Assembly (NCBI GenBank): GCA_022616275.1
Contig: JAKEFB010000042.1
Location: forward strand, 124,001 to 188,000
Origin: Chloroflexota bacterium
Lineage (GTDB): Bacteria; Chloroflexota; Anaerolineae; Promineifilales; Promineifilaceae
DNA: 64,000 nucleotides
Direction of reading: 5' to 3'
Shown one piece after another: positions 1 to 64,000 of the stretch. The translations under genes were made by a program, and so were the position numbers. Under the pieces are notes generated by a model that was not told the origin of the DNA, made no database searches, and saw only the letters and a list, made by a program, of their open reading frames with translations. How positions within the stretch are numbered: position 1 is the stretch's first letter; each line of letters opens with the position of its first letter.

Positions 1-741
1 GCGCCAGGCTACCAGCCCAATCGCCACGGCCACGACGAAAGCCAGCAAACGGTGGGCCATTTGAATGGTGATCAACCCCTCCAGGTGGGGCGGCACGCCG
101 GCCACCCCGCACTGCGGGAAAGCCGGGCAGGCCAGCGACGCCCCGCTGCGGGTCACGAGGGAGCCGCTCACCAGCAGCAGGTAGGTCAGCCCGGCCGCCA
201 ACGCCGCGTATAGGGGCAGCCGGCCGCCGCCAACCAGCGGCGCCACTTGGGCGCTCAGCCGCCGCAGCCCCGGCTGAGTCGCGGCCACCAGCGCCGCCAG
301 CAGCCCGGCCAGGGCCATGGCCACGGCCGTGTGAATGAAACCGGACCAGTATGGCAACTCGGCCAGGACGTGGATGCCGCCCAGGCTGGCCTGGAGAAAG
401 AAGACGCCCACGGCGGCGGCCGCCAGCCCCCACAGCCGGGGCTGCTGGTGGCGGCCACGCCAGGCCAGCCAGGCCAGGACGAAAATTTGCAGGCCGACGA
501 TGCCCCCCAGCAGCCGATGGCTGAACTCAATCCAGGCCCCCAACTGTAGCGGCGGCACGGCCCGGCCGTAACATAGGGGCCAGTCCGGGCAGCCCAGCCC
601 ATTGCCGCTGACCCGCACAAAGCTGCCCACCCCAATCAACAGAATCGTACTCACCAGCCCGGTCAGGGCCAGGGTGGCCCATTTGGATTGAGATTGGCCA
701 GTGACTCGAATGGAGGAGATTTCTTTGTAAGTTGTATTCAT
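1..741 (-). CDS. ctaA: Heme A synthase (CtaA/COX15 family), C-terminus beyond window
   Basis: Converts heme O to heme A in the membrane for the aa3-type cytochrome oxidase. Reading the minus strand from ATG at 741 gives 247 codons without a stop, running off the window edge. The visible protein has repeated membrane segments, an early RVSGNGLGCPDWPLCYG motif, a first conserved-type histidine in EFSHRLLG, another in GFIHTAVAM, and a second-half cysteine pair region (LACPAFPQCG) followed by QMAHRLLAF. This paired His/Cys pattern is typical of COX15/CtaA. The start was chosen because the hydrophobic first segment begins about 25 residues later and no upstream extension is plausible. It is divergent from the metal ATPase at 920. 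Presence of heme A synthesis implies aerobic respiration. Family call is firm; the missing C-terminus cannot be judged. Confidence 0.9.
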   Translation of the reverse strand, partial: MNTTYKEISSIRVTGQSQSKWATLALTGLVSTILLIGVGSFVRVSGNGLGCPDWPLCYGRAVPPLQLGAWIEFSHRLLGGIVGLQIFVLAWLAWRGRHQQPRLWGLAAAAVGVFFLQASLGGIHVLAELPYWSGFIHTAVAMALAGLLAALVAATQPGLRRLSAQVAPLVGGGRLPLYAALAAGLTYLLLVSGSLVTRSGASLACPAFPQCGVAGVPPHLEGLITIQMAHRLLAFVVAVAIGLVAWR

Positions 742-771
742 CGGTTGCTTGCAATTACTTTTGGGTTGTCA

Positions 772-790
772 AACGATTTTCAAAATCGTT
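772..790. promoter_or_regulatory. 19-bp perfect palindrome in the ctaA/P-ATPase divergent gap
   Basis: Two perfect 9-base arms (AACGATTTT and its complement) flank one central C. On the minus strand a TTGACA box (767-772) abuts the palindrome, so a protein bound here could control ctaA, the ATPase, or both. It could also be just a small dispersed palindrome. No regulator is encoded next to it. Confidence 0.35.
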
Positions 791-855
791 CTACTCTACC
801 ACATCGGCCGACGTTGAGCGAAGGGCGCTGTCAGTGTAGAATGTAGGGGCAAAGA

Positions 856-895
856 AGAGATTGGAGATTGGCCTAATCTCCAATCTCCAATCTCT
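856..895. repeat. GGAGATT heptamer palindrome upstream of the metal ATPase
   Basis: GAGATTGGAGATT is followed after five bases by three inverted copies of the same 7-base word. The array can fold into a hairpin and ends about 25 bases before the ATPase start codon. Related GGAGATT arrays lie near 21724 and 27894, so this is a dispersed word, not a gene-specific site. Confidence 0.7.
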
Positions 896-919
896 ATTCT
901 CCTTTACAGGTGATCGCGT

Positions 920-3052
920 ATGGCTAACACCAGAACCGTCGAACTGCTTATCGCCGGCATGGATTGCGCGGAGTGTACGCGGCACGTGCAGCGGGCGTTG
1001 CTGAGTGTGCCGGGCGTAGCCACGGCCGAAGTCTTCCTGGCTTCCGAAAAGGCCGTGCTCCAACTGGAGCGGGAGCAGGTAGACCTGGCCGCGCTGCGGC
1101 AGGCCGTGGCCAACGCCGGCTACAGCGTCCCGGAAACGGCCGGGCCGGCCCAAGACAGCGCTCCCCAGGCCGCCCAGGCCAACCTGTCCCGCCAGGTCGT
1201 CCGGTTGACGGCCGTCGTCCTTGCCGCCGTCCTCTTTGTGGTCGTCGTGGGCGAGTGGCTGGGGCTGTTGGAGCGCATCACCGGCCTGGTCCCCTGGCCC
1301 GTCGGGCTGCTGCTCGTCCTGGCCGGGGGCTACCCCATTTTCCGCAACGTCCTCCGCGCCGCTCTCCGCCGCCAGATCACCTCCCACACCTTGATGACCC
1401 TGGGGGTCGTGGCCGCCCTGGCCGTGGGCGAGTGGGCCACGGCCGTGGTCATCGTTTTCTTCATGCGTGTCGGCGACTATGTTGAACAATTTACTACCGG
1501 CCGGGCCCGCCGGGCCGTCCAGGGGCTGGCTGCCCTGGCCCCACAGACTGCCCGGCTGCTGCGCGACGGCGAAGAGGTGGAAGTACCCATCGCCGAGGTT
1601 CGCGTGGGCGACGTCGTCGTCGTCCGGCCGGGAGAGAAGCTACCGGTGGACGGCGACGTGGTCGCCGGGCAGGCGACGGTGGACCAGGCGACCATCACCG
1701 GCGAATCGCTGCCGGTCGAGGCCGGCCCGGGTTCCCGGGTCTACGCTGCCAGCCTGGCCCAACTGGGCAGCCTGCGGGTCAGGGCCAGCCACGTCGGGCC
1801 GGACACGACCTTCGGCCGGATCATCCGGCTGGTCGAGGAGGCCGAAGCCCACCGGGCCGACGTGCAGCGTTTTGCCGACCGCTTTACCGGCTATTACCTG
1901 CCGATTGTCGCCGGGTTGGCGGCGCTGACGCTGATCATTGGCCGCGATCCCCTGGTGGCTGCGGCCGTCCTGGTCGTGGCCTGCTCCTGCTCCATCGCCC
2001 TGGCTACGCCCATTGCCATGCTGGCTTCCATTGGCGCGGCCGCCCGCAGCGGCCTGCTCATCAAGGGTGGCAAATACCTGGAGACGGTCGCCCAAGCTGA
2101 TGTGTTGCTGATTGACAAGACGGGCACGCTGACGCTGGGCCGGCCGCAGCTCACCGACGTCATCCCCCTCGACGGGCTGGACGAAGCCGGCCTGCTGGCG
2201 CTGGCTGCGGCCGCCGAGCGCTACTCCGAGCACCCCCTGGCCGAGGCGGTGCGGGCCGCGGCCCGTAACCGGAACCTGCCCTTAGTGGAACCGGCCGCCT
2301 TTGAGGCCCTGCCTGGCCTGGGCGTCCACGCCGAGATAAACGGCCGGCGGGTCACGGTCGGCAGCCGCCGGCTCCTGGCTCCCATAGAGTCTCCGACCGT
2401 GGCCGGACTGGAGGCGCAGGGCAAGACACTGCTCTTTGTTGGCCAGGATGGGCAGTTGAGCGGTATCCTGGCCGTGGCCGATACGCTCCGGCCGGAAGTC
2501 CCGGCGGCTCTGGCCCAGGTTCGCCAGTTGGGTATCAGGCAGATTGAACTGCTAACGGGAGACAACGAGCGGGCAGCAGCCGACCTGGCCGGCCGGCTGG
2601 GCGTGGCCTACCGGGCCAACCTGCTGCCCGAAGAGAAGATTGCCATTGTCAGGGAGTACCAGGCCCAGGGAAGAAAGGTGGTCATGGTCGGCGACGGGGT
2701 CAACGACGCCCCGGCCCTGGCCCAGGCCGACGTGGGTGTGGCCATGGGCGCGGCCGGGACGGACGTGGCCCTGGAGGCGGCCCACGTGGCCTTACTGCGG
2801 GACGATTGGACGCTGGTCCCCGAACTGTTCCGGCTGGCCCGCCGGACGATGGGCGTGGTCAAGATGAACCTGGCCTTTACCGCTGTCTACAACCTACTCG
2901 GCCTCAGTCTGGCCGCCGCCGGCCTGTTGCCCCCGATCCTGGCCGCCGCCGCCCAATCGTTGCCGGACCTGGGCATTCTGGCTAATTCGTCGCGGCTGCT
3001 GCGGGGCGGCCGGAACGGCAGACGACGGACGACGGACGATAGACGACAGTAA
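920..3052 (+). CDS. Heavy-metal P1B-type ATPase with CSC instead of CPC
   Basis: Predicted transition-metal exporter of the inner membrane, 710 residues. In order: an N-terminal HMA domain with metal-binding C16-x2-C19 (GMDCAEC), membrane segments from about residue 95, the actuator TGES at 260-263, the intramembrane metal site, D399KTGTLT as phosphorylation site, and GDGVND at 591-596. The intramembrane motif reads A-C355-S-C357-S, with serine where almost all P1B pumps have proline (CPC/CPH/SPC). The family is certain; the ion is not, and the CSC variant weakens transfer from Cu or Zn pumps. It stands alone after ctaA with an AGGTGATC-type ribosome site. The last residues (RRRTTDDRRQ) are encoded by a GACGACG repeat arm, so the tail is probably not functional. 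Confidence 0.93.
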   Translation: MANTRTVELLIAGMDCAECTRHVQRALLSVPGVATAEVFLASEKAVLQLEREQVDLAALRQAVANAGYSVPETAGPAQDSAPQAAQANLSRQVVRLTAVVLAAVLFVVVVGEWLGLLERITGLVPWPVGLLLVLAGGYPIFRNVLRAALRRQITSHTLMTLGVVAALAVGEWATAVVIVFFMRVGDYVEQFTTGRARRAVQGLAALAPQTARLLRDGEEVEVPIAEVRVGDVVVVRPGEKLPVDGDVVAGQATVDQATITGESLPVEAGPGSRVYAASLAQLGSLRVRASHVGPDTTFGRIIRLVEEAEAHRADVQRFADRFTGYYLPIVAGLAALTLIIGRDPLVAAAVLVVACSCSIALATPIAMLASIGAAARSGLLIKGGKYLETVAQADVLLIDKTGTLTLGRPQLTDVIPLDGLDEAGLLALAAAAERYSEHPLAEAVRAAARNRNLPLVEPAAFEALPGLGVHAEINGRRVTVGSRRLLAPIESPTVAGLEAQGKTLLFVGQDGQLSGILAVADTLRPEVPAALAQVRQLGIRQIELLTGDNERAAADLAGRLGVAYRANLLPEEKIAIVREYQAQGRKVVMVGDGVNDAPALAQADVGVAMGAAGTDVALEAAHVALLRDDWTLVPELFRLARRTMGVVKMNLAFTAVYNLLGLSLAAAGLLPPILAAAAQSLPDLGILANSSRLLRGGRNGRRRTTDDRRQ

Positions 3053-3082
3053 TAAGAATTATCGTCCGTCGTCCACCGTCGA
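3020..3082. repeat. GACGACG heptamer palindrome spanning the ATPase stop codon
   Basis: Left arm 3021-3047 repeats GACGACG/GACGAT words inside the end of the ATPase gene; right arm 3061-3082 is its inverted counterpart. The fold could act as a transcription terminator or mRNA-end stabiliser. The same word recurs one-sided at 20390-20445. Confidence 0.7.
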
Positions 3083-3092
3083 GGATTGAGAG

Positions 3093-4184: not shown

Positions 4185-4193
4185 AGATGGCAT

Positions 4194-4257: not shown

Positions 4258-4270
4258 GCCAGGAGATACA

Positions 4271-5769: not shown

Positions 5770-7223
5770 ACGATAACGAATTTTATCAGTTGCCTGAAGA
5801 AGAGCCTGATAGCCGGCCGCCGGCTGAAGAAATTCAGCGAGCCGAGGAACGAAGGACAAAGCGGCGCGTGCGGCTGATTGCCTGTGGCCTGCTGATCGTG
5901 CTGTTATGCGGCGTGGCCAGCGCGCCGCTGGCGGTCCTGTACTGGTGGACGACTAACCGGGATGGCCAGGAAGCGCCGGCCGCGGCCACGGCCGGACCGG
6001 AATCCGAACTGGCCGTCACCGAAAGCTCGGACGGAGTGAACCGGATTGCCTACATTACCCTGGACCAGCAACTGGCGACCGTTGCCCCAGATGGCAGCGA
6101 GCAGCACCTGTTGACCAACCAGGAAGAGCAGCGCTTCCAATTTCCGGCCTGGTCGCCGGACAGCGCATTGCTGGCCGTGGTCGGGGGCGGCCGGGAGGAG
6201 GCCGGCATTTACGTACTGCCGGACACGGCCGGCCAGGAGGGAGAGAGCAACCTCCCAGAAGCGCTCTATGAGAGCCAGGACCAGCCCCCCTTTTACCTGT
6301 ACTGGTCGCCGGACAGCCGGCAGGTAAGCTTCTTAGCCAACCACCCGGACGGCATTGGCCTGCACCTGGCTCAGGTCGAGGACGGCGAGAGTCACCTGTT
6401 CGCTACCGGTCAGCCTTTTTACTGGGACTGGACGCCTGAAGGCGATCAGATTTTCATCCACACCGGCCTGTCGGGGGAAGACGCGCGGCTGGCGCTGGTG
6501 GACCCGGCCGGGGACGCCAGCGGAGACAACATCGCCGCACCAGGCTTTTTCCAGGCTCCCGGCATTGCCCCCAGCGGCCGCTACTGGGCCTTTGCCGAAG
6601 TGGACGAGAACGACGACCGCTGGCTGGTGGTCCAGAGCAGCGCCGGCGACCAACGGCTGGAAGAGCAACACCTGGGGCTGGTGGCCCTGGGCTGGAGCCC
6701 GGCGGCCGATCTGCTGGCCTACACCGCTCCCCCGGTGGGTGGCCCTTTCTTCTTTGGCCCTTTGCGGCTGCTGGACGCGGCCACGGGTGAAAAGCGGCTC
6801 CTGACGGGCGATATTGTCATTGGCTTTTTCTGGTCGCCGGATGGGCAATCCATTGCCTATTTCGCCCTGGCCGATGAGGATGAGGGGACCCAGGCGGCCC
6901 AACCCGACGACGGGCGCTTTCTTGGCAAGCCGGCCGCCCAGGAAGAGGATGATTTCCAACTGGCGCTGTGGGTGGTGGACGTGGCCGGCGGCGCGCCGCG
7001 CCGGCTTTTGAACTTCCGGCCGACGGAGCTGTTTGTTAACCAGTTCCTGCCGTTTTTTGACCAGTATGCCCTGAGCCATCGGCTCTGGTCGCCGGCTAGC
7101 GACGCCGTGGTGCTGCCGATGGTGGTCGAAGGCGACGTGCCTCGCATTGTGGTCGTGCCGGTAGACGGGTCTCCGGTGCGGCCGGTGGCCGAGGGGCTGG
7201 TGGGGTTTTGGAGCCAGCGGTAG
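5754..7223 (+). CDS. Membrane-anchored TolB/WD40-like beta-propeller protein
   Basis: About 489 residues. An acidic cytoplasmic N-terminus is followed by one membrane helix (about residues 40-62, LIACGLLIVLLCGVASAPLAVLYWW) and an extracytoplasmic domain with repeated [FY]xWSPDS blades (for example FPAWSPDSALLAVVG, LYWSPDSRQVSFLA, FFWSPDGQSIAYF). This repeat is the TolB-type six-bladed propeller, usually a protein- or ligand-binding platform. A GTG at 5754 is preferred because GGAG at 5741-5744 is nine bases upstream; GTG at 5748 is also in frame. No enzymatic motif is visible. The start region is part of the 74-base-period duplication. Function beyond surface binding is unknown. Confidence 0.75.
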   Translation: MSTELDDNEFYQLPEEEPDSRPPAEEIQRAEERRTKRRVRLIACGLLIVLLCGVASAPLAVLYWWTTNRDGQEAPAAATAGPESELAVTESSDGVNRIAYITLDQQLATVAPDGSEQHLLTNQEEQRFQFPAWSPDSALLAVVGGGREEAGIYVLPDTAGQEGESNLPEALYESQDQPPFYLYWSPDSRQVSFLANHPDGIGLHLAQVEDGESHLFATGQPFYWDWTPEGDQIFIHTGLSGEDARLALVDPAGDASGDNIAAPGFFQAPGIAPSGRYWAFAEVDENDDRWLVVQSSAGDQRLEEQHLGLVALGWSPAADLLAYTAPPVGGPFFFGPLRLLDAATGEKRLLTGDIVIGFFWSPDGQSIAYFALADEDEGTQAAQPDDGRFLGKPAAQEEDDFQLALWVVDVAGGAPRRLLNFRPTELFVNQFLPFFDQYALSHRLWSPASDAVVLPMVVEGDVPRIVVVPVDGSPVRPVAEGLVGFWSQR

Positions 7224-7276
7224 AGAGGGGAGAGGGGGAGACAAGGAGCAGGGGTGCAGGGGAGCAGGGGACGAGG
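7223..7276. repeat. Purine-rich 7-8 base word array after the propeller gene
   Basis: GAGAGGGG and GCAGGGGA words are repeated imperfectly, one-sided. The rest of the 217-base gap to 7441 shows no gene and no clear terminator. Similar GCAGGGG words occur inside the YfhO gene near 46700 and 47215. Confidence 0.5.
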
Positions 7277-12982: not shown

Positions 12983-13591
12983 ATTTTGTGAGAGGTGCTG
13001 GCGGCGGCGCCATTCCAGGCCAAGGCCGGTGGCGACAAAGCCAGCCCCAATCAGCGCCGACCACACCAGGCTGGGAGCCACGGCCGCGCCGGCCACCGGC
13101 AAGACCGCGCCCCCTGGCAGGCCACCAGGCCTGGCCGTGCCTTTGGCCACGCAAAAGTCTACACCCAGGACCAATCTTTGTTCTTCGGTGAGGAGGGCCT
13201 CCAGCGGGCTCTTGGAGGTGACCACCATGCCGGCCGGCGGTTCAGCCTTGACAGTCCAGCGGCCCAACCCGGCGGCTACCAGGCCGTAGGTGCCGTTGCT
13301 GCCTGATTGGAGGTAGACCGTCGTCGCCCCGTCGTTGCTAACAAACTGGATAGGGATGCCGGCCAGCACCGGCTCCCCGGTACCAATACATTTGCCGTCG
13401 CCGTTCTGGTCGTCGTAAATAGTCCCGCGTATCGAACCCCGGACTGTCCCATCTTGCGCGGCGGGAGGGCTGCCGTTGGTGGGGATGTTGGTAGGTGTCG
13501 GCCGTGGTGTCGGCTCCTGGGCCTGGGCGACCCCAGTGGCCAGAATAAGCAATAAGACCGAAAGCACGCTCATCCAGATTCTCTTTGACAT
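12944..13591 (-). CDS. Secreted SdrD/Cna-B-like protein, probable sortase substrate
   Basis: 215 residues. A signal peptide (residues 1-24, ending AQAQE) is followed by a Pro/Thr-rich linker, a domain starting GSIRGTIYDDQNGDGKC with the DxNxDGxxD-type calcium-binding look of SdrD B-like repeats, then LPVAG at 164-168, a hydrophobic segment (about 172-193) and a basic tail RRRQ. That order matches a sortase cell-wall sorting signal with LPVAG in place of LPXTG. It sits directly downstream of the sortase gene on the same strand with an ideal AAGGAGG ribosome site. Substrate status is an inference from motif and neighbour. The last residues are encoded by a repeat arm. Confidence 0.75.
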   Translation of the reverse strand: MSKRIWMSVLSVLLLILATGVAQAQEPTPRPTPTNIPTNGSPPAAQDGTVRGSIRGTIYDDQNGDGKCIGTGEPVLAGIPIQFVSNDGATTVYLQSGSNGTYGLVAAGLGRWTVKAEPPAGMVVTSKSPLEALLTEEQRLVLGVDFCVAKGTARPGGLPGGAVLPVAGAAVAPSLVWSALIGAGFVATGLGLEWRRRQHLSQNRTLMNADAADKK

Positions 13592-13610
13592 GATAGACCT
13601 CCTTATGAAG

Positions 13611-13656
13611 TGATGAGTGATGAGTGATGAGCGATGAGTAACTCATTGCTCATTGC
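13611..13656. repeat. GATGAGT heptamer palindrome between sortase and substrate genes
   Basis: Four GATGAGT-type words (13611-13639) are followed directly by inverted words (13640-13656). The inverted arm overlaps the sortase stop codon at 13650. Confidence 0.65.
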
Positions 13657-14426
13657 TGAATTGGCCTGGCGATGACGATCAGGCGATAGGCGTTGGTGGC
13701 GTACGGCCAGCAGGAGACCAGGGTCACGCGTTCATCTGTGGTGGACTCGATCCAGCGCGCGTTTTCCAGGCGCACCGAGAACGGCTCACCATTTTCCGGC
13801 AGGAGTTCTTGCTGCGTGACTTCGTAGGTATGAGACGAGCCGGCTACGTCATATAAAATAACCTTTTCTCCAATGACCAGGTTAATCAGGTCGCGAAAGA
13901 TTTCCCCGTAAATATTGTTGTGGCCGTTGAGCACGGTGTTGCCCGGCTGGCCCAGGGACGCGCTGGTTTCATGCCAGCCGGCCGTATATCCGTTGGGCAC
14001 GTTCCACTGAAAAAATTGCTGCCCATTTTCAATGACCGATAGCAGGCCAATGCGGGTTACCGGGGCGTCTATCCCTAGAGACGGGATGATCAGCCGCAGG
14101 GGCTGGCCGGCAATGGGTACACCATAGCTCTTGGGCGCTTCCTCAACGGTGGCATAGGAAGGCAGCTCACCCGAAGCAGACAATAGCGGTGTTTCCGGCA
14201 GGAGAATGGGGACGCTAGTGACATCGCCGACTGCCGATCGAGGTTGCGTCGCCGTGGGGATGGGCGTCGGCGGTACGCTGGCTCGCTCCAGTAGCGCCGG
14301 CATTTGCGAAGGAGAGATGGCCCAAACAATGGCGGCCGACAGCATAACAATGAGTCCGATGGCCACCAGGACGATACCCAGTGGGATCTTGAGTTCTTGC
14401 GCAGGGCCAGATGAAGGCGAGGGCAC
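13650..14426 (-). CDS. Class D/E-type sortase
   Basis: Membrane transpeptidase that would cleave a C-terminal sorting signal and attach the protein to the envelope; 258 residues. One N-terminal membrane helix (about 10-35), a Thr/Pro-rich linker, then the sortase barrel with H169 in LNGHNNIYG, C239 in TLVSCWPY and R248 in AYRLIV, the complete catalytic triad. Start is GTG at 14426 preceded by AGGAGTATAAGGATC. Its neighbour downstream carries an LPVAG-hydrophobic-RRR tail, forming a dedicated sortase/substrate pair. The exact sortase class is uncertain. Confidence 0.9.
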   Translation of the reverse strand: MPSPSSGPAQELKIPLGIVLVAIGLIVMLSAAIVWAISPSQMPALLERASVPPTPIPTATQPRSAVGDVTSVPILLPETPLLSASGELPSYATVEEAPKSYGVPIAGQPLRLIIPSLGIDAPVTRIGLLSVIENGQQFFQWNVPNGYTAGWHETSASLGQPGNTVLNGHNNIYGEIFRDLINLVIGEKVILYDVAGSSHTYEVTQQELLPENGEPFSVRLENARWIESTTDERVTLVSCWPYATNAYRLIVIARPIQQ

Positions 14427-18828: not shown

Positions 18829-18943
18829 TTGGTGACAAGGTGACAAATTGAGGGAGGAGCTTGGGTTTCTCTGGCGGCCGTTCCTGGGTAGATGTTGTAG
18901 TCTGGCCGGAGGGCGGCCGTAGCCCAGTGGTCATTTGCCGCCG

Positions 18944-20389: not shown

Positions 20390-20445
20390 GACGACGGGGG
20401 ACGACGGCCGATGGACGATGGACGACAGACGACGGGCGATGGATG
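20390..20445. repeat. GACGACG/GACGATG heptamer array, one-sided
   Basis: About eight imperfect 7-base words fill the space between two convergent genes. No inverted arm is present. The same word builds the palindrome at 3020-3082. Confidence 0.65.
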
Positions 20446-21721: not shown

Positions 21722-21760
21722 GGTGGAGATTGGAGATTGGATGAGTCTGCAATCTTCACC
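21722..21760. repeat. GGAGATT words upstream of the M29 gene
   Basis: Two and a half GGAGATT words are followed by a weak inverted part (AATCTTCACC). It is a short relative of the arrays at 856-895 and 27894-27957. Confidence 0.5.
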
Positions 21761-27077: not shown

Positions 27078-27590
27078 TTAGCTGCGCACCGGCGGCCGGA
27101 GCAGAAGCCCGACGCCAACGCCAATCAGCATGACGGCAATCAGGACCAGCCAGGGATATTCATGGACGATCTGGGCCGGGTGGCCGGGGACCCGGGCGAC
27201 CGCTTCTTCGATGCGCTGGTTGTACTCGCCGGCCATTTCGGTGGCCTTTTCTTTGCCTTCGGCCAGCTTCGTCTGGGCATCCTGAACGGTCTCCTGAACC
27301 TTCTGGCTGGCTTTTTCTTTGGTTTCGGCCAGCCGGGCCTGGGCTTCGTGCATGGTCTCTTGCAGCTTGCGGGCGGCTTTATCCAGGCCGCCATCCAGCT
27401 CTTCCAGGTAATTGTCTACTTCCTGGCTGGCCCTGGCCCTGGTGTAGCCGTACTTTTCTTGCAGCAAGCCTTCCAGCCGGTCCCGCCGGCCTTGAATCAT
27501 CAGGATTTCGTCGTCGGTAAGCTTGCCCCACTGCTCTTTGAGGTTACCCTTCAGTTTTTCCCACTTGCCTTCTAAAACATCTGTAGTCAT
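27078..27590 (-). CDS. CsbD-like stress protein with membrane tail anchor
   Basis: 170 residues. Residues 1-60 match the CsbD fold (LEGKWEKLKGNLKEQWGKLTDDE). The middle (about 65-125) is a highly charged helical repeat rich in Ala, Lys, Glu and Gln, like LEA or apolipoprotein-type coils (KEKASQKVQETVQDAQTK). The end has one membrane helix (about 145-165) then RPPVRS, as in DUF883/ElaB-type ribosome- or membrane-tethered proteins. Known members are induced by general stress. AAGGAG eight bases before the ATG gives strong translation. It is monocistronic with a terminator. Fusion of the three parts is unusual but not unique. Confidence 0.8.
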   Translation of the reverse strand: MTTDVLEGKWEKLKGNLKEQWGKLTDDEILMIQGRRDRLEGLLQEKYGYTRARASQEVDNYLEELDGGLDKAARKLQETMHEAQARLAETKEKASQKVQETVQDAQTKLAEGKEKATEMAGEYNQRIEEAVARVPGHPAQIVHEYPWLVLIAVMLIGVGVGLLLRPPVRS

Positions 27591-27893: not shown

Positions 27894-27957
27894 GGGGAGA
27901 TTGGAGATTAGAGATTGAATGAAGAGCAGGTTTCATCTCCAAACTCTAATCTCTTGG
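27894..27957. repeat. GGAGATT heptamer palindrome before the lipoprotein gene
   Basis: GAGATTGGAGATTAGAGATT (left) and inverted CATCTCCAAACTCTAATCTC (right) flank about ten bases. Same word family as 856-895. Confidence 0.65.
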
Positions 27958-31377: not shown

Positions 31378-31378
31378 T

Positions 31379-31440
31379 TTTAGATTTTAGATTTTAGATT
31401 TTCTGGTCTGATCCAAAACCTAAAATCCAGTCAAAATTCT
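31379..31440. repeat. TAGATTT heptamer palindrome inside the ABC operon
   Basis: Three exact TAGATTT words followed by an imperfect inverted arm (CCAAAACCTAAAATCC). It lies between the ATPase and permease genes without visibly breaking the operon. Confidence 0.65.
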
Positions 31441-32594: not shown

Positions 32595-33575
32595 ATGGCT
32601 GTCATTTCAATGAAAGCCCTATTAGAAACGGGTGTCCATTTTGGGCACCGCACGCGCCGTTGGAACCCGAAGATGAAGCCGTTCATCTTTACTGAGCGCA
32701 ACGGCATTCACATCCTGGATTTGCAGCAGACACTGATGACCATCGAAAAGGTCTATACCGTGGTGCGCGACGCCGTGGCCAACGGCGGCTACGTGCTGTT
32801 TGTCGGGACCAAACGCCAGGCCCAGGACACCGTGGCCAGGGAGGGGACGCGCGCCGGCCAGCCTTTCGTCAACGACCGCTGGCTGGGTGGGACGCTGACC
32901 AACTGGCAGACGATTCGCCAGCGGATCGAATACCTGAACAAACTGGAAGAGCGGCGTGATGCCGGCGAGTTTGACCTGTTGAAAAAGAAGGAACGGCTGA
33001 CGCTGGAGCGGGAAATCGAGAATCTGAACCTGCGGCTGGGCGGTATTCGGAAGATGCGCAACTTGCCGGCTATGCTCTACGTGGTGGATGTTAACAACGA
33101 GGAGACGGCCGTGCGTGAAGCCAACATCCTCAATATCCCGGTGATCGCGATGGTAGACACCAACTGTGACCCGGACCCGGTGGACTACGTTATCCCCTCC
33201 AATGACGACGCCATCCGGGCTATTAAGCTGATTACCAGCAAGATAGCCGATGCCGCGATGGAAGGCATGACGCTACGCCAGGAAATGGTGGAGGAGGAAA
33301 TCACCGACTTCGACCGCTATGATTATGATTTTGAAGACCTGGACGACGCCGAAGATGAGCGCCTGTTGGGTGAAGCGACGCTGGCTAAGCTACGTGAAGG
33401 CGCCTACGGGGTCCGAGACAAGATCGTGAGCGAAGAGTTGGAAGTCCTGGCGTTCGCAGAAGAAGAAGTAGTAGAGAAAGAGTCGGAAGAGGGCGCGGAA
33501 GTCGAGAACGAAAACGAATCTGACGAGGAAGTCAGGTCCGACGAGGAAGCCGGGTCCGACGAGGAAGCCGAGTGA
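32595..33575 (+). CDS. rpsB: Ribosomal protein S2 with acidic C-terminal extension
   Basis: Small-subunit ribosomal protein, 326 residues against about 230-260 usual. Core motifs [64 protein letters not shown] and the C-terminal [21 protein letters not shown] are all present. After residue about 235 comes an acidic tail rich in Glu, Asp and Ser with the repeated [12 protein letters not shown]-type ending. ATG 32595 begins the conserved protein; an in-frame GTG at 32526 is inside the leader. First gene of the rpsB-tsf-pyrH-frr cluster. Confidence 0.97.
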
Positions 33576-35632: not shown

Positions 35633-35670
35633 GTAGAGCGAGAGCGAAAGCTAGAGCGAGAGTTAGAGTT
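35633..35670. repeat. GAGAGC/TAGAGC hexamer array before uppS
   Basis: Six-base words GAGAGC, GAAAGC, TAGAGC, GAGAGT, TAGAGT in direct tandem, no inverted arm. The array displaces any normal ribosome site for uppS. A TAGAGT-type palindrome is at 51184. Confidence 0.55.
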
Positions 35671-38316: not shown

Positions 38317-38357
38317 GTGAGTTGGCGAGTTCGCGACTGCGCGAGTTGGCGAGTTAA
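38317..38357. repeat. GCGAGTT heptamer array after fbp
   Basis: About five GCGAGTT-type words, directly after the fbp stop codon and before the rho promoter. One-sided. Confidence 0.6.
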
Positions 38358-41124: not shown

Positions 41125-41184
41125 AAAGATTTTTGGGTTATTGGTTATTGGACGCTCGACTAATAACTGATGACCCCAAAGCGA
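41125..41184. repeat. GGTTATTG/GACGCAAAG word palindrome
   Basis: GACGCAAAA-type words are followed by GGTTATTGGTTATTGG and inverted TAATAACTGATGACC, between two convergent genes. The unit is 7-8 bases. Confidence 0.55.
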
Positions 41185-46036: not shown

Positions 46037-48984
46037 GCGGGCGAGGGGTGTGGCGGGCGGTGGCTCCGGGGGTGGCGCTTGTGGCGCTGGTGGGTCTCTT
46101 TTTTCAGAAGATGGCTTTCAGCAACCTGATCCTGGCCCGGGGGGATACATTTCTCTACTTTTATCCTTACTGGCAGGCGGCGGCCGGGGCGCTGCGGGCC
46201 GGCCGAATACCGCTGTGGAACCCGTACCTGTTTATGGGCGCGCCGTTCCTGGCCAACAGCCAGGCCGGCTTTTTTTACCCGCTCAACTGGCCGCTGTGGT
46301 GGCTGTTGCCGGCGCCATACGCGGCCAGTGTGGCCATTTTGCTGCACCTGTTGATTGCCGGGGCGGGAACGTACCTGGCCGGCCGGCGCTGCCTGGGGCT
46401 GGGCCGGCCGGCGGCGTGGCTGGCAGCTGGGCTTTTCGCCCTGGGCGGCTACCTGACGGCCCAGGTGGAGCACGTGAACCAGTTGGAGGGGCTGGCCTGG
46501 CTGCCGTGGTTTTTTGTGGCCCTGGGTTCCTGGCAAGGGCAACAGGAGTGGCGAATGGTGGCTCGAGTAGCGGCGGCCGTGGCGGCTCTGTTTGCGCTGC
46601 AATTGCTGGCCGGGCATACGCAGACGGCGTTTATTAGCGCGGTAGGGGTGGGGGTGTGGGTGGTGTCACGTGTCAGGTATCAGGTGTCAGGTGTCAAATG
46701 GCAGGGGGGCAGGGGAGCAGGGGAGCAGGGGGCAGGGGGCAGGTATCAGGTGTCACGTGTCATGTTTTATTTTTTCCCGTTGTTCTTGGGAGGGGTGCTG
46801 GCGCTGGCGATGGTGGGGGGGCAGTTGTTGCCGGCGCTGGAATTGGCGCGGTATTCGAGCCGGCAGGGAGGGCTGCTGGTTAATGAGGCGCTGTCTTTCT
46901 CTTTGCACCCGCTGTTGCTGACGCGCTCGTTGTTACCGGGTTACGGGCAGTCGCTGTTTAGTGAGTACGTGGCCTTTTTGCCGCTGACGGGTTGGTTGCT
47001 GGTTTTTGTTGGGGCTTGGCGCTGGCGAGCGGAGCCGGTGGTGCGGCCGTTTGTGGTCCTGGCTGTGGTTGGCTTCTTTCTGGCGCTCGGCCGCTTTAAT
47101 CCGCTGTCGTACCTGCTGGTGCAGTTGCCCGGCTTTGACCTCTTTCGCGCTCCGGCGCGCTGGCTGGCGCTGTTTGCCCTGGGCACGGCGCTGCTGGCGG
47201 GGGTGGGGTGGCAGAGAGGGCAGGGGGGCAGGGGGGCAGAGGAGACAAGGGGAGGGTCGCTCTACGAGCGGGGGGGACCGGAGATACGGCGTCTCCCCCT
47301 CTCCCTCTCGCCCCCTCTGCTGGTCGGGACGGTGTTCCTGGTTGGGTTGATGGTGTGGGGGTTTGTGGCTGTGCCGCTGGCGCGGTGGGCGCCGGTGGGG
47401 CCGGAGGCGCCGGCCGAGTGGCCAGCAGCGCTGACAGTGGTTGGCTGGGTGGTGGAGCTGGGGTTGGGTGGTAGTTTGTTATTTTTTGACGCCAAGACGC
47501 CAAGACGCAAAGAAATTTTGAACTTTGCGTCTTGGCGTCTTGGCGTCGGAATTTTGGCTCTGGGGGCGCTGTGGCTGGCTTCGCGGAGTTTGCCTTACAA
47601 CGGCCTGACGACGCCGGAGGCTTACTTTGACCTGCGGCCGGCGGTGGCGCGGTTGATGGCCGAGGCGGCTTGCGGGCAGCCGGTTTTACCCACTGATGGA
47701 AGTTGCCCCCAACCGCCGGGCCGTTTCCTGAGCCTGTCGGAGATTTTCTTTGACCCTGGCGACCAGGCGGAGATTAACAGTATTTATGCCGGCCAACTGC
47801 CGGCCGAGGCGCTGTACGATTACACAGTGGCTATCAAGGAGAAGGAGATTATTGCCCCCAATTTGCCGCTGGCTTACGAGTTGCCGGCGGTGGACGGCTT
47901 TGACGGGGGTATTCTGCCGCTGCGGAGTTACACGGCGCTGACGAGCCTGATTTTGCCGGAGGGGGTGGAGACGACGGACGGCCGGCTGCGGGAGCACCTG
48001 CCGGCCGTGCCGGAGGGACGCTGGCTGGACCTGTTTAACGTCCGCTACCTGGTGACGGACAAGGTGGGGGATACGTGGCGGGAGATTGGCGAGGGGCAGA
48101 GCGCCTATTTTGATTTGCAGCACCCGGCGACGCTGGCGGCCGGGGAACGGTTAACAGTAGGCTACGTACCCGATTTCCCGGCCACGGCGCTGGTTTTGAT
48201 CGCCGAGGGGCAGGTGGGGACGGTGGAAGTGACGGCCGGGAACGGCAAGACGTGGACGATTGCGCCGGTGGCCATTGACAGCGGGCTGCTGCGGGCCGGC
48301 TGGCCGGAGCCGGGGCCGCGCCAGGTTTTGCCGGTGGCGGTGGCTGAGACGGTTACCTTGCAGGCGGCCGGGAGCGGGGAGTGGCGTATTCACGGGCTGA
48401 CGCTGGTCAACGAGCGGGACGGCACGTTCCAGTCGCTGGTGGCCGGCAATTACCGGCTGATCCATTCGGGCGACGTGAAGATTTACGAGAACCTGGACGC
48501 GCTGCCGCGCGCTTTCCTGGTCTACGAGTGGGAATACCGGCCGGACGTGGCGTCGAGCGTGGAAGCGATGCGGGCCAGTGGCTTTGACCCGGCGCGGACG
48601 GCCGTGCTGGTGGGCGACGGGCCGTTACCGGGGGATGGTCCTGTGACGGGCGGCACGGCCCAGGTGCTGAATTACGAGCCGGAGCGGGTGGTGGTCCAGG
48701 TAGAGAGCGAGGCGGCCGGGCTATTGCTCCTGACCGACGCCTGGTATCCCGGCTGGCAGGCCACGGTTGACGGGCAACTGGCCGCTACCTACCAGGCTGA
48801 TGGCCTCTTTCGGGGGGTGATGGTCCCGGCCGGGGAGCACGAGATTATTTTTTCTTTTACGTCTAGTAGTTTTGCCGCCGGCCGGTTGTTGAGTCTAGGA
48901 GGAGTGATCGGCTGGCTCCTTCTGGTGTTTGCCGGAAATATTCCTAAGGTTTTTGACGCAAAGGCGCAAAGACGCCAAGGATAA
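46033..48984 (+). CDS. YfhO-like large membrane protein with embedded repeat arrays
   Basis: 983 residues, a polytopic N-terminal half (GT-C/YfhO type, with RGDTFLYFYPYWQAAAGALRAG and PLWNPYLFMGAPFLANSQ) and a C-terminal extracytoplasmic part with a RYLVTDKVG domain and a final helix pair near PAGEHEIIF. YfhO proteins are thought to glycosylate teichoic-acid-like polymers. GTG 46033 overlaps the GT39 stop. The reading frame is interrupted by three in-frame word arrays (46663-46763, 47211-47320, 47488-47547) that encode low-complexity peptides such as RYQVSGVKWQGGRGAGEQ, and its last residues come from the array at 48955. These insertions would fall in loops. Confidence 0.78.
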   Translation: MSGRGVWRAVAPGVALVALVGLFFQKMAFSNLILARGDTFLYFYPYWQAAAGALRAGRIPLWNPYLFMGAPFLANSQAGFFYPLNWPLWWLLPAPYAASVAILLHLLIAGAGTYLAGRRCLGLGRPAAWLAAGLFALGGYLTAQVEHVNQLEGLAWLPWFFVALGSWQGQQEWRMVARVAAAVAALFALQLLAGHTQTAFISAVGVGVWVVSRVRYQVSGVKWQGGRGAGEQGAGGRYQVSRVMFYFFPLFLGGVLALAMVGGQLLPALELARYSSRQGGLLVNEALSFSLHPLLLTRSLLPGYGQSLFSEYVAFLPLTGWLLVFVGAWRWRAEPVVRPFVVLAVVGFFLALGRFNPLSYLLVQLPGFDLFRAPARWLALFALGTALLAGVGWQRGQGGRGAEETRGGSLYERGGPEIRRLPLSLSPPLLVGTVFLVGLMVWGFVAVPLARWAPVGPEAPAEWPAALTVVGWVVELGLGGSLLFFDAKTPRRKEILNFASWRLGVGILALGALWLASRSLPYNGLTTPEAYFDLRPAVARLMAEAACGQPVLPTDGSCPQPPGRFLSLSEIFFDPGDQAEINSIYAGQLPAEALYDYTVAIKEKEIIAPNLPLAYELPAVDGFDGGILPLRSYTALTSLILPEGVETTDGRLREHLPAVPEGRWLDLFNVRYLVTDKVGDTWREIGEGQSAYFDLQHPATLAAGERLTVGYVPDFPATALVLIAEGQVGTVEVTAGNGKTWTIAPVAIDSGLLRAGWPEPGPRQVLPVAVAETVTLQAAGSGEWRIHGLTLVNERDGTFQSLVAGNYRLIHSGDVKIYENLDALPRAFLVYEWEYRPDVASSVEAMRASGFDPARTAVLVGDGPLPGDGPVTGGTAQVLNYEPERVVVQVESEAAGLLLLTDAWYPGWQATVDGQLAATYQADGLFRGVMVPAGEHEIIFSFTSSSFAAGRLLSLGGVIGWLLLVFAGNIPKVFDAKAQRRQG
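46663..46763. repeat. CAGGTGT heptamer array inside the YfhO gene
   Basis: About thirteen words (CAGGTAT, CAGGTGT, CAAATGG, GCAGGGG, CACGTGT). It stays in frame and is not found in the flanking coding sequence. Confidence 0.7.
47211..47320. repeat. GCAGGGG/CTCCCCC palindromic array inside the YfhO gene
   Basis: Purine words GCAGAGAG and GCAGGGG on the left, pyrimidine words CTCCCCCT and CTCTCGCC on the right, with a GCTCTACGAGC stem between. In frame. Confidence 0.6.
47488..47547. repeat. 25-bp perfect palindrome of GACGCCAA words inside the YfhO gene
   Basis: Arm 47488-47512 is repeated exactly inverted at 47523-47547 with a ten-base AT-rich loop. The unit is GACGCCAA/GACGCAAA. In frame, encoding FFDAKTPRRKE and LNFASWRLGV. 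Confidence 0.8.
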
Positions 48985-49015
48985 TTAATTCTTTGCGCCT
49001 TGGCGTCTTTGCGTC
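48955..49015. repeat. GACGCAAAG word palindrome after the YfhO gene
   Basis: Left 48955-48980, right 48991-49015. The right arm holds the same words in a different order from the left, so the arms are not simple mirror copies. The left arm encodes the C-terminal DAKAQRRQG residues. Confidence 0.65.
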
Positions 49016-49029
49016 AGATGAGACGCGCC

Positions 49030-49879: not shown

Positions 49880-49978
49880 GTGGGAACACAGAGGGCACAG
49901 AGGAGACACAGAGAATCACAGAGAACACAAGGTTTTGCTTTTTGCATTTGGAAATCTCTGCGCCTTTGCGTCAAATTC
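49880..49978. repeat. CACAGAGAA word array between YceI and thiolase-like genes
   Basis: 9-base words like CACAGAGGG, AGACACAGAG and AATCACAGAG, then an inverted-type part ending CTTTGCGTCAAATTCC. The 203-base gap holds no gene. Confidence 0.55.
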
Positions 49979-51125: not shown

Positions 51126-51137
51126 AGTCCTCTCAAG

Positions 51138-51166
51138 TTGACAACTTATCTGGATTGCAAGATAAT
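51138..51166 (+). promoter_or_regulatory. Promoter for the 51-64 kb gene run
   Basis: TTGACA (51138-51143), exact 17-base spacer, GATAAT (51161-51166). The -35 box is the centre of a small palindrome AAGTTG-A-CAACTT (51134-51146), a possible operator. The array at 51184-51221 lies in the leader. Confidence 0.65.
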
Positions 51167-51183
51167 TTTTTCACCTTACCGCA

Positions 51184-51221
51184 AGAGTTAGAGTAATCAA
51201 CTCTAACTCTAACTCTAACTT
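51184..51221. repeat. TAGAGT/CTCTAA hexamer palindrome
   Basis: AGAGTTAGAGT, short centre, then three CTCTAA words. It sits in the untranslated leader of the next gene. Confidence 0.65.
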
Positions 51222-51256
51222 TTCACCACTTACCGCCGCAGGGAAGAAACCGGTCC

Positions 51257-52132
51257 ATGAAGCCAGCGCCTTTTGAATATATCGCCCCCAATTCTTTGCG
51301 TGAAGCCCTCCACATTCTGGCCGAAAAAGGCGGTGAGGCCAAGGTGCTGGCCGGCGGCCAGAGCCTGGTGCCGGCTATGAACTTCCGGCTGGTGCAGCCA
51401 GGTCTGCTGGTGGATCTGGATCGCATTCCCGAGCTGGCGACTATTCGCCGGGCGAGCGACGGCGGCCTGCGCCTGGGAGCGATGACCCGGCAGCGCCGGC
51501 TGGAGCGAGACCCAGTGGTGGCCGAGGTCGCGCCGCTGCTGCACGAGACGATGCCGCACGTGGCCCACGTGCAAATTCGCAACCGGGGCACGCTGGGCGG
51601 CAGCCTGGCCCACGCCGACCCGGCGGCCGAGTTGCCGGTGATTATGGTTGCTCTGGATGGCCGTTTCCGGCTGCAAAGCGCGGCCGGTGAACGGTGGGTA
51701 GCGGCCGGGGAATTCTTCCAGGGACTCTTTACCACAGCCCTGGCGCCGGAGGAGGTCCTGGTGGAGGTGGCCGTCCCACCGCGGCCGCCCCGCACCGGCT
51801 GGGCCTTCGTCGAGTTTGCCCGCCGCCGGGGAGATTACGCGCTGTTGGGCGTGGCTGCACTGCTGACGCTGGACGAGAACGGCGTTTGTCGCCAGGCGCG
51901 GCTGGTCTACCTGAACGCCGGCGAAACCCCGGTGAATGCCCGCCAGGCGGCGACGACACTGGTAGGAGAGGAACCATCGCCGGAACGGTTTGCGGCCGCG
52001 GCCGAGGTGGCGGTGGAAAAGGAAATTAACCCTGGCGGCGACATCCACGCCTCGGCCGCTTACCTGCGCCACCTGGCCCGGGTGCTCACCCGGCGGGCGT
52101 TGGAAACGGCCGTGGGGCGGGTGAGATCATAG
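51257..52132 (+). CDS. Molybdenum hydroxylase FAD-binding subunit (CoxM/XdhB-like)
   Basis: 291 residues, medium subunit of xanthine-dehydrogenase/CO-dehydrogenase-type enzymes, carrying FAD that passes electrons to an acceptor. FAD motifs VLAGGQSLVPAMNFR (31-45) and RGTLGGSLAHADPAAE (about 113-128) are intact. Paired with the 2Fe-2S subunit 88 bases downstream. The large molybdopterin subunit, normally in the same operon, is not in the window. Substrate could be a purine, CO-like or aromatic N-heterocycle; not readable here. Confidence 0.9.
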   Translation: MKPAPFEYIAPNSLREALHILAEKGGEAKVLAGGQSLVPAMNFRLVQPGLLVDLDRIPELATIRRASDGGLRLGAMTRQRRLERDPVVAEVAPLLHETMPHVAHVQIRNRGTLGGSLAHADPAAELPVIMVALDGRFRLQSAAGERWVAAGEFFQGLFTTALAPEEVLVEVAVPPRPPRTGWAFVEFARRRGDYALLGVAALLTLDENGVCRQARLVYLNAGETPVNARQAATTLVGEEPSPERFAAAAEVAVEKEINPGGDIHASAAYLRHLARVLTRRALETAVGRVRS

Positions 52133-54599: not shown

Positions 54600-54660
54600 G
54601 AGGTAATTAGGTAATTAGGTAATTGGGTAATTACCCAATTACTTAATTACTCAATTACTA
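54600..54660. repeat. GGTAATTA 8-base word palindrome before fdrA
   Basis: Three GGTAATTA/GGTAATTG words, then inverted TTACCCAATTACTTAATTAC words. A strong AT-rich hairpin in the CBS-fdrA gap. Confidence 0.7.
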
Positions 54661-56350: not shown

Positions 56351-56400
56351 GTTATCTGGTTATTGGTTATTGGCTATTGAGCTAATGGCTAATAACTTAA
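56351..56400. repeat. GGTTATT heptamer palindrome before the large kinase gene
   Basis: GTTATTG/GCTATTG words and inverted CTAATGGCTAATAACTT words. Same word as part of the array at 41125. Confidence 0.6.
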
Positions 56401-60926: not shown

Positions 60927-60928
60927 AG

Positions 60929-62170: not shown

Positions 62171-62179
62171 TTGGGTAAC

Positions 62180-62428: not shown

Positions 62429-62471
62429 ATTCGGTGGCTATTAATAGAAAAACATGTTCAAACATGTTTTT
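62418..62471 (+). terminator. Double hairpin terminator after the antitoxin gene
   Basis: CCACCGAA with complement overlaps the stop codon (62418-62437); AAAAACATGTT with complement (62448-62471) ends in TTTTT. Good intrinsic terminator, closing the long gene run. From 62472 to 62751 I see a CCGGAAG/CTTCCGG stem near 62611-62641 and no gene. Confidence 0.75.
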
Positions 62472-62751
62472 GAGTTGAATTATCGAATTACCTCAATAAG
62501 TCAGGTTAACAATGGTTGTTACCTCCAGTGGTCCGAACCCCGTCTGACGTGGCCTGGCGGTGGCCAGGCTTCCTATCTGTAGACGGTTGATATTGTTTCG
62601 GTAGATCGCGCCGGAAGGCGGGTGAGGCGCCTGCGCTTCCGGGGTGTGGCGATCGGCCGGGTTTGGATCAAGGGCCGGCGGGCCGTTGGGAAGCAGGCTG
62701 CTTCTTGGTGGCCTGATTTCTGATTGGCGTGCCGGCCGATAGGAGGCAACA

Positions 62752-63696
62752 ATGAGCAACTTAACAGTTAAAGAGATCGAACAGGAATACCACCACCTGG
62801 CGCAGGCAGGGGCGTATGAGCAAGCGTTGGCGCTGGCGACGCGGGAGGCGCATCAGTTCCCGGAACACGCCCAGCGGATTGTGTACTACTGGCGTTTTCG
62901 GATGGCCGCTTTGCTGGGCGAGGCAGAGCTGACTTTGCAGTTGTTGGATGAGGCGCTCCAGGCCGGGCATTGGTACAGTGGGCTGGAGGAGGATTCGGAC
63001 TTTGCGCTGTTGTCCGGCCGGCCTGAGTTTGAACACCTGGGGCAACGATGCCGGGAAAGGCGGGCAGAGGCTATGGCGGCGGCCGTGCCGGTGATGGAAA
63101 CCCTGGAACCGGGGCAGGCGGCCCAGCCTTATCCGCTGCTCATGGCCTTGCACGGCAACAACAGCACGGTGGCCGGCTTTCAGCGACACTGGCAAACGGC
63201 CGTGGCGGCCGGTTGGCTGGTCGGGCTGCCGCAATCTTCCCAGCAATATGGGCCGGACAATTACTCGTGGATGGATTGGGAATGGTCTATCCAGGAAGCG
63301 CAGCAGCAGTGGCGGGCGCTACAGAGCAGTTACCCGGTGGATGCAGAACGGGTTGTGCTGGCCGGTTTCTCGATGGGTGGCGGCCTGGCTACCTACCTGG
63401 CCTTAAGCGGTACGATCCAGGTTCGCGGCCTCGTCCTGGTGGCGCCGTTTTTGCCGGACCCCAAGAATATGATTCCGCACCTCGAAGCAAGGAAGTATGG
63501 CACCGATTTACGGGTGTACCTGGCCGCCAGTGAGCAGGATGAGTATTGCCTGGATGTAGCCCGGCAGTTGGCCGATTTTTTGCCACGCTATGAGGTGGCC
63601 TGCCAACTGGAAGTCTTTAGCGACCTGGGACACAGCTTTCCGGTGCAGCTTGAGCAGAATTTACCTCAGGTACTGGCTTTCGTAACGCAGTCGTAG
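62752..63696 (+). CDS. Alpha/beta hydrolase with N-terminal helical-repeat region
   Basis: 314 residues. Residues 1-110 look like TPR-type helices (YEQALALATREAHQFPEHA, ELTLQLLDEALQAGHWYSG). The rest is an alpha/beta hydrolase with LMALHGNNST oxyanion loop, nucleophile S207 in AGFSMGG, D263 (ASEQDEY) and H294 (DLGHSFP). Serine esterase/carboxylesterase-like (dienelactone hydrolase or feruloyl esterase-like PHB). Substrate unknown. GGAGGCAACA precedes the ATG. After the terminator, so perhaps a separate transcript. Confidence 0.85.
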   Translation: MSNLTVKEIEQEYHHLAQAGAYEQALALATREAHQFPEHAQRIVYYWRFRMAALLGEAELTLQLLDEALQAGHWYSGLEEDSDFALLSGRPEFEHLGQRCRERRAEAMAAAVPVMETLEPGQAAQPYPLLMALHGNNSTVAGFQRHWQTAVAAGWLVGLPQSSQQYGPDNYSWMDWEWSIQEAQQQWRALQSSYPVDAERVVLAGFSMGGGLATYLALSGTIQVRGLVLVAPFLPDPKNMIPHLEARKYGTDLRVYLAASEQDEYCLDVARQLADFLPRYEVACQLEVFSDLGHSFPVQLEQNLPQVLAFVTQS

Positions 63697-63705
63697 CATC
63701 TTTTT

Positions 63706-63741
63706 CAGGCGCCAGGCACTCGCAGAAGTGCCTGGCGCCTG
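63706..63741 (+). terminator. 15-bp perfect hairpin after the hydrolase gene
   Basis: CAGGCGCCAGGCACT and complement with a six-base loop. Contains the AGTGCCTGGC end motif of the 64-bp dispersed element (4194, 16371), but without its core. Confidence 0.6.
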
Positions 63742-63758
63742 AGTAGAAGGAGGCGCCG

Positions 63759-64000
63759 ATGAAATTTATTGACCTGACCATCCCTCTCGGTATTGGTACT
63801 CCTCCCTGGCCAACGTATGAGCCGTTGCAGGTGAAGTATTTTAAGCGACTGGCGCCAAACGGGGCGAATGGGCAATTGGTTACGCATAGTAACCATATTG
63901 GGACGCACCTGGATGGGGAGATTCATTTTTATACGCCGGGGAAGGATATTGCTTCGCTGGACTTTGAGTTCCTGGCGGGCGAGGCGGCCGTGGTGGACTT
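63759..64000 (+). CDS. Cyclase-family metal hydrolase (kynurenine-formamidase-like), partial
   Basis: First 80 residues only; the frame runs off the window. MKFIDLTIPLGIGTPPWP opening and SNHIGTHLDGEIHF, the HxGTHxD metal-binding motif of cyclase-family (PF04199-like) amidohydrolases such as kynurenine formamidase and isatin hydrolase. AAGGAGG seven bases before the ATG gives strong translation. An amide- or lactam-hydrolysing enzyme fits the N-catabolic block before it; substrate open. Confidence 0.88.
   Translation, partial: MKFIDLTIPLGIGTPPWPTYEPLQVKYFKRLAPNGANGQLVTHSNHIGTHLDGEIHFYTPGKDIASLDFEFLAGEAAVVD

Follow-up and report, generated by a model that had tools for sequence, protein, structure and literature searches.

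What builds the palindromes of short tandem words that lie between the genes of an uncultured Chloroflexota bacterium? The question was raised by a stretch of 64,000 nucleotides (nt) on contig JAKEFB010000042.1 of assembly GCA_022616275.1 (positions 124,001 to 188,000 of the forward strand), referred to here as the window. The genome to which it belongs (8.53 Mb in 309 contigs) and those of its relatives were also analyzed. In these elements, a word of six to nine bases is repeated several times and, after a short junction, the same word is repeated in inverted orientation. An earlier note on this DNA had proposed that different words of the same build were made by one mechanism, possibly slippage or a template-copying enzyme, and that they serve as mRNA 3' ends. 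Our results suggest that these palindromes, which are polar, were built in place by some process, for which there are candidate builders only.

The abundance of the arrays was determined first in the window. All gap and gene limits were set by the open reading frame caller of this analysis and are not curated annotation. Of the 41 window gaps measuring 25 nt or more, 17 contained tandems of period 6-9 with a minimum score of 8, which agrees with the earlier count of more than 15 gaps. The note had also stated that most arrays have an inverted second half; such partners exist, but at our thresholds they were present in 8 of the 17 array-bearing gaps, so "most" was a slight overstatement. All the words it named were recovered, some of them rotated or as variants, but the GACGACG array (3021-3047) lies in the end of a gene (920-3052) and not in a gap. 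The window contained 45 tandems of period 5-10 vs 2-6 in each of five dinucleotide shuffles. Thirteen of the 45 overlapped a hairpin vs none in the five shuffles, a count in which the two arms of one palindrome may appear twice.

The same excess was seen in a larger sample of the genome, consisting of the window and 60 further stretches (1,141,646 bases), some of which were picked for matches to the palindrome at 54601 or to GAGATT. One dinucleotide shuffle of this sample gave 10 gap arrays, whereas the real sequence held 329 (2014 per Mb); gap arrays overlapping a hairpin numbered 103 vs 0, so the excess is real. Of the 580 gaps that were 40 nt or longer, 211 (36%) held an array. Coding sequence held 224 arrays vs 62 in one shuffle. 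Periods 7 and 8 accounted for 280 of the 329 gap arrays (176 and 104, respectively), and periods 6 and 9 for 143 of the 224 coding arrays. Gap arrays of period 6-9 comprised 119 canonical words, the most frequent being AATCTCC (31) and AATTACTC (18). The idea of one build with many recurring words holds both in this genome and in its relatives, and a single process behind the different words is plausible.

The facing words showed a strong polarity. Since the 5' arm of a palindrome reads the same whichever strand is taken, the 5'-arm word is a property of the element itself. The 5' arm contained more G than C in 82 of 88 palindromes from the window's own genome (C exceeded G in 4 and 2 were ties) and in 137 of 155 palindromes from the ACE group of relatives (8 with C in excess and 10 ties). 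The 5'-arm words of the own genome contained 216 G, 197 A, 195 T and 41 C. The ACE-group stretches, which were picked around loci with GAGATT palindromes, are not independent of a further set of 80 named loci because the two sets overlap; the named loci were retrieved by the convergent pattern and, hence, are selected for that orientation. When counted per word family, polarity was found in 20 of 23 families in the own genome (p 5e-4) and in 9 of 13 in the ACE group (p 0.065, not significant alone). A G-rich 5' arm was found in divergent gaps (10/10 own, 11/15 ACE group), in convergent gaps (13/15 and 18/18) and in 21 of 22 palindromes inside ACE-group genes. Because divergent gaps, convergent gaps and ACE-group genes all show the polarity, it is independent of the direction of transcription. 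The GAGATT family gave the same result: convergent arms had 103 matches in the own genome, with overlapping registers counted, and divergent arms had none in each of the 8 genomes searched. The ratio of convergent to divergent arm pairs was 20:0 in the own genome and 81:0 in the ACE group.

Next, the words were compared unit by unit. The profiles were made from arrays matching their consensus at 0.88 or better, which lowers the variation seen at fixed positions. The words varied chiefly at set positions, giving the consensus forms RGAGATT, RRGAGATT, RRGTAATT, SGTRATS, RGTGTCA and AGTRAGC. The R position of RGAGATT was G59/A40 among 171 units of the own genome and G67/A33 among 893 units of relatives, with the other positions 96-100% fixed. 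Neighboring variable bases tended to alternate. In a test on the pooled and de-duplicated sets, they did so in 172 of 280 cases vs 0.467 by chance (p 1e-6), and the sets taken separately gave 0.65 vs 0.49, 0.56 vs 0.42 and 0.63 vs 0.47. Alternation counts against plain slippage because the duplication of neighbors would yield the opposite pattern. Together with the shared dictionary of words and the fixed polarity, it disfavors plain slippage as the maker.

The two arms of a GAGATT palindrome shared their word and agreed in period in 20 of 20 cases in the own genome, 75 of 81 in the ACE group and 108 of 112 named pairs. In finer detail, the arms were independent of each other. The variable base equaled its mirror in 91 of 169 positions (0.538; expected 0.531; p 0.88) in the pooled, de-duplicated sets (named 77/136, ACE 33/55 and own 4/13 by set). 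Arm lengths were not correlated in the ACE group (rho 0.065, p 0.56) or in the own genome (rho -0.37, p 0.11). GAGATT arms, which lack an AATT-like end, joined across varied loops; of the 91 loops at named loci, the commonest occurred twice. RRGTAATT arms often joined at GGGTAATTACCC, and such centers fit the annealing of two 3' ends in AATT.

The earlier note had proposed that gap alignments be compared for gain, loss or exchange of words, and this comparison revealed exchanges of the whole word. Orthologous gaps of 25-800 nt with both flanks located (n=95) were collected from ACE_CHL11, BJ8, CFX4 and CFX8, whose flanking identity to ACE was 89-91%. Arrays co-occupied orthologous gaps above the level expected from independence, for example 29 vs 17.3. 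In 140 two-array comparisons, the words differed by 2 edits in 24 and were unrelated (at least 3 edits) in 25, the latter spread over 16 of the 95 gaps; 60% of non-orthologous array pairs were at 3 edits or more. Placement of the swapped arrays at the same spot was judged by eye on gap printouts, with long gaps left out. At set I 5933, ACE has a GGTAATC palindrome vs a GGGAGATT palindrome in BJ8 and CFX8, with the flanks preserved to within a few bases. At set H 10335, an outer "ttgggtaat" is common to ACE, BJ8 and CFX8, and the inner words differ, three in all. Where a palindrome was flanked by arrays of a second word, these arrays pointed inwards in 7 of 8 layered cases, with one tie and none outwards; two of the inward seven are orthologs (L282 and L284). 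In three layered cases, the switch from outer to inner word occurred at a common ATTGG.

The best model for these findings, which we put forward tentatively from sequence comparison, is that repeats are added to a pair of facing 3' ends, which are afterwards joined. Each of the two ends at an intergenic gap or break would gain the same degenerate, G-rich, C-poor word, and the extended ends would then be linked to give a run of words, a short junction and a run of inverted words. If each 3' end were extended separately with the same word, the arms would share word and period and differ in length and at the variable base. Later breaks inside the palindrome could strip away a large part of it, and the site would be refilled in a further round, in some cases with a different word, which would appear as a word swap. 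The addition might be templated by a telomerase-like reverse transcriptase or made by a slipping repair polymerase. Facing G-rich words, concordant word and period, independent detail, degeneracy and replacement from the inside out all fit two-ended 3' addition and joining.

Several observations weigh against this model. In the own genome, only 1 of 3 palindromes inside genes showed the polarity. Most two-array comparisons of orthologous gaps (91/140) had related words, differing by at most 1 edit. Arm lengths were weakly correlated at the named loci, which are selected (rho 0.20, p 0.035). A rare unit variant was present at mirrored places in two palindromes, set I 5933 (ACE) and set J 7806, which suggests copying between the arms there. 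Taking all words together, real stems beat unit-permuted stems in 58 of 68 and 120 of 132 cases, a test that is biased because the hairpins were chosen as the best. Ku was found in 1 of 35 genomes, and with this near absence Ku-dependent joining was rejected; the joining would need another route. No maker enzyme could be tied to the arrays in reverse transcriptase searches of the own genome and relatives. Among the 17 genomes with GAGATT palindromes, BJ8, which is rich in arrays, and G295 had no RVT_1 match. The correlation of array density with RVT_1 matches fell to rho 0.58 (p 0.025) when split matches were merged and to rho 0.47 (p 0.09) without G011. Finally, RT_UG37, a reverse transcriptase considered as the maker, was rejected since the own genome was the sole one of 49 to contain it.

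A template-copying enzyme, as the earlier note had suggested, is nevertheless a possible maker. The other 15 of the 17 genomes with GAGATT palindromes had an RVT_1 match, and the match count before merging rose with array density over 15 genomes (rho 0.70, p 0.004). Densities were taken from 5.9-20 kb per relative, and the gene caller, whose training genomes were different ones, misread some of the relatives (13.7 of 18.2 kb in G016 were labeled as gap). The own genome has four reverse transcriptase loci. RT_UG37 (PADLOC PDLC03776; 758 aa) is encoded at L310 712-2988 (G000:C150), with a GTGTCA array directly downstream. The reverse transcriptase at L307 1249-3515 (G000:C160) adjoins an FGE-sulfatase-like protein and, judged by this FGE-like neighbor, looks like that of a diversity-generating retroelement. 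The remaining ones are group II-like (under the NCBIfam cut-off) and retron-like. Tandems were seen near three of the four loci, with no clear template, and the finder would miss a template barely longer than one word.

The arrays of the window are given below, with the strand where one was assigned.

856-901: RGAGATT palindrome, in the divergent gap 742-919
7223-7271: GAGAGGG and GCAGGGGA arrays, no inverted partner at threshold
13609-13657: AGTGATG palindrome (the GATGAGT of the earlier note), co-directional gap 13574-13649
18831-18846: GGTGACAA array of two copies
20399-20443: GGACGAC-type array, in a convergent gap
21722-21760: GGAGATT array with a weak inverted partner
27896-27953: RGAGATT array and inverted partner, loop 22
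31377-31427: GATTTTA array and inverted partner
35635-35670: array of six-mers, AGAGCG and AGAGTT
38319-38355: eight-mer array, GCGAGTT-type
41136-41151: GGTTATT array, first of two
46662-46765, + strand: RGTGTCA and GGGGAGCA arrays, within the open frame of the YfhO-like gene (46048-48984)
47199-47318, + strand: GGGGGGCA and CTCCCCCT arrays, within the same open frame
47488-47547, + strand: GACGCCAA palindrome, stem score 25, loop 10, in the same open frame
48954-49016: GACGCAAA palindrome, spanning the stop of the YfhO-like gene
49884-49929: nine-mer array, CACAGAG-type
51184-51220: AGAGTT palindrome, in the divergent gap 51126-51295
54601-54659: RRGTAATT palindrome with center GGGTAATTACCC; the own genome has similar copies, as do 5 of the 30 relatives searched
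56351-56393: GGTTATT array, second of two

Two longer tandem repeats were also noted in called genes of the window: a 66-base repeat of 2.1 copies (27242-27380, within the gene 27078-27590) and an 18-base repeat (33522-33570) at the 3' end of the gene 32673-33575.

The arrays extend into coding sequence and are not confined to gaps. The YfhO-like membrane-protein gene (46048-48984) carries them at three places in its open frame, with a fourth palindrome across its stop. Of 30 relatives and 25 named genomes, 27 and 21, respectively, had an ortholog of this gene, two genomes being common to both lists. Among the 28 ortholog loci that were read (the own one included and two counted twice), 16 had an in-frame tandem of period 6-9 and 12 had none. 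The word-like arrays in these orthologs consisted of different words at similar residue numbers.

The words are patchily distributed. Of 251 phylum-wide genomes, 2 carried the GAGATT palindrome, the own genome being one of them, and 1 carried the GTAATT core; with less strict criteria, GTAATT arrays turned up in 5 of 30 relatives. In bacterial and archaeal genomes, a pattern of three plus two GAGATT words matched at least 109 stretches, and the 80 matches listed were all Chloroflexota by title and taxonomy. One scan of viral contigs gave no match to the GAGATT palindrome, a phage search gave none to the GACGCAAA palindrome, and a plasmid search gave none to the GACGCAAA or AGTGATG palindromes. 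The RRGTAATT palindrome matched 5 plasmids over 31-35 bases (4 from Vibrio and 1 from Buttiauxella). In the Vibrio plasmids NC_005128, NZ_CP012741, NZ_AP025512 and NZ_CP044208, 8-26 places per record match the GTAATT arm along some 35 bases and may be other repeats. A 50-kb stretch of a Trichormus plasmid had 9 tandems and no palindromic array at our thresholds.

Of the alternatives to repeat addition at two 3' ends, spread of the palindromes as mobile elements, similar to REP/REPIN or MITE elements and moved by a transposase, survives best and we consider it rather unlikely. A word swap would then be the replacement of one element by another. REP, REPIN and BIME elements carry a fixed sequence tag, are linked to a RAYT transposase and are not known to have tandem words in their arms. 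The arrays resemble them in being dispersed intergenic palindromes (PMC3733652, PMC2817692, PMC3116915). The words are dispersed and common to several genomes, Y1_Tnp matches were found in 16 of 21 genomes, and some array-free orthologs among ACE, BJ8, CFX4 and CFX8 have another palindrome in the same gap, all of which would suit mobile elements. However, the 91 GAGATT loops mostly vary between copies, and the arms are independent at the variable base, unlike copies from one master; REP or REPIN elements are copies of one conserved palindrome, and the GAGATT family, with its mostly unique loops and independent arms, is not. Array density was not significantly related to the Y1 count (rho 0.34, p 0.21), and no target duplication was seen by eye. 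Some gaps in which relatives carry word arrays were filled by palindromes of a non-tandem kind, for example gtgagacgcactttcaaagtgcgtctcac and a longer gtcattccgagg...ggaatgac element.

Another explanation, which we judge unlikely, is that the arrays are selected binding sites for nucleoid- or insulator-type proteins acting as a mirrored pair and arise by ordinary mutation and slippage. A fixed six-base core with a free spacer of one or two bases would be expected of such sites, as would arms that are alike in word and period without exact pairing, and orthologs do share array gaps above chance. On the other hand, one site can carry entirely different words in different genomes, in most cases with no visible intermediate, an outcome that gradual selection would not yield, and arrays also lie in frame in the gene for the YfhO-like membrane protein, where other species have other words.

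A more specific form of the 3'-addition model takes the arrays to be scars of healed breaks. Telomeric words are G-rich and C-poor. Similar C-poor words would be added to both 3' ends of a chromosome break, which would then be sealed, leaving a facing repeat. We regard this as doubtful, having lowered our estimate of a telomerase-like origin because the correlation between reverse transcriptases and array density was weaker on recount. It is equally doubtful that a word exchange at one site records a second break and that a telomerase-like activity works on the bacterial chromosome. One search of open-licence PMC papers retrieved no account of telomere-like repeats at bacterial breaks.

Local slippage for the tandem, combined with foldback template switching for the mirror arm, could in principle act site by site, and we hold this to be improbable. 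According to one survey (Mrazek 2007, as cited in PMC4679880), heptamers are the most frequent category of long simple repeat in most of the genomes covered, and the two palindromes with mirrored rare variants would suit such a process. Under such a process, the words should be random and without polarity, like units should form runs and the arms should mirror each other; recurring words, strong polarity, alternation and independent variable bases were observed instead. Use of the palindromes as mRNA 3'-end hairpins or terminators, the function favored by the earlier note, is very improbable and was not borne out: the inverted arms are able to fold and arrays often lie close behind a stop codon (by eye, uncounted), but arrays are as frequent in divergent gaps (35/103) as in convergent (25/66) or co-directional ones (151/411), stem mismatches on the mRNA strand of co-directional gaps showed G.U and A.C at 29:31 in the own genome and 49:48 in the ACE group when stems kept for RNA should show G.U above A.C, and a T-run followed 4 of 176 palindrome sides vs a background of 0.015. 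A stop-codon cassette was also rejected, since words with stops were not enriched (48/88 vs 59.3 and 79/155 vs 102.6 in letter-shuffled words).

Tandem heptamers are a long-known feature of bacterial genomes, with no consensus on their origin. The short tandemly repeated repetitive (STRR) sequences of cyanobacteria are intergenic heptamer tandems with a patchy spread. The earlier note had compared the arrays to these, and the likeness is supported since published bacterial heptamer repeats resemble the arrays. The closest are GGGAATC or (GGGANTN)n in Xanthomonas and GGGGA(C/T)T in Nostoc (Rehm et al. 2015; PMC4692102). Like the arrays described here, of which 176 of 329 in gaps have period 7, the Xanthomonas repeats are G-rich, degenerate, mostly intergenic heptamers in convergent pairs, and 70 and 75 pairs in "convergent orientation" are reported for two genomes (PMC4692102). 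The build of facing heptamers is therefore already known. Their position is mostly retained between relatives while length and sequence vary, and no function was found for them (PMC4692102). In contrast to the one word family per genome of that paper, the Chloroflexota arrays have many words, periods of both 7 and 8, polarity across words, and swaps; they are not under-represented between divergent genes, as the Xanthomonas repeats are. The Xanthomonas repeats are read as G-quadruplex formers (PMC4692102); the common Chloroflexota words mostly lack G-tracts of three. A single dominant GGGANTN word with G-tracts was not present among the 119 canonical words of the own genome. Polarity across words, arm independence, layering and whole-word swaps are not described for the Xanthomonas repeats in the available portion of that paper (PMC4692102).

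Other systems are similar in part. The TAACTGA direct repeats of Beggiatoaceae, Cyanobacteria and Bacteroidetes (MacGregor 2015; PMC4679880) are also intergenic heptamer tandems with a patchy spread across phyla, but they have one word and, in the BOGUAY genome, lie mostly just upstream of starts, with 169 direct sets vs one indirect set. Archaeal Borg repeats, too, evolve fast, form independently, and occur both in gaps and in frame, often in membrane or extracellular proteins, and the mechanism of their formation is unsettled (PMC9879509). Their units are longer (18-21 nt in the examples), perfect, A-enriched and head-to-tail, and no facing arms are described in the part of the account available (PMC9879509). 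DRT10, a bacterial reverse transcriptase, uses a short RNA template to add tandem words, which are 9 nt long in the system described (Tang et al. 2025; PMC12632851). It yields protein-primed cDNA in phage defense, and additions to chromosomes are not mentioned in the accessible text (PMC12632851). DRT10 was not identified in the genomes analyzed here, in searches that did not include a DRT10 model as such.

Three simply measured properties (polarity, arm independence and word swaps) make it possible to tell apart slippage, transposition, a function in RNA and the addition of repeats to 3' ends, so the question of where these repeats come from becomes testable. If the arrays were indeed scars of breaks, the gaps between genes would hold a log of where and how these chromosomes broke.

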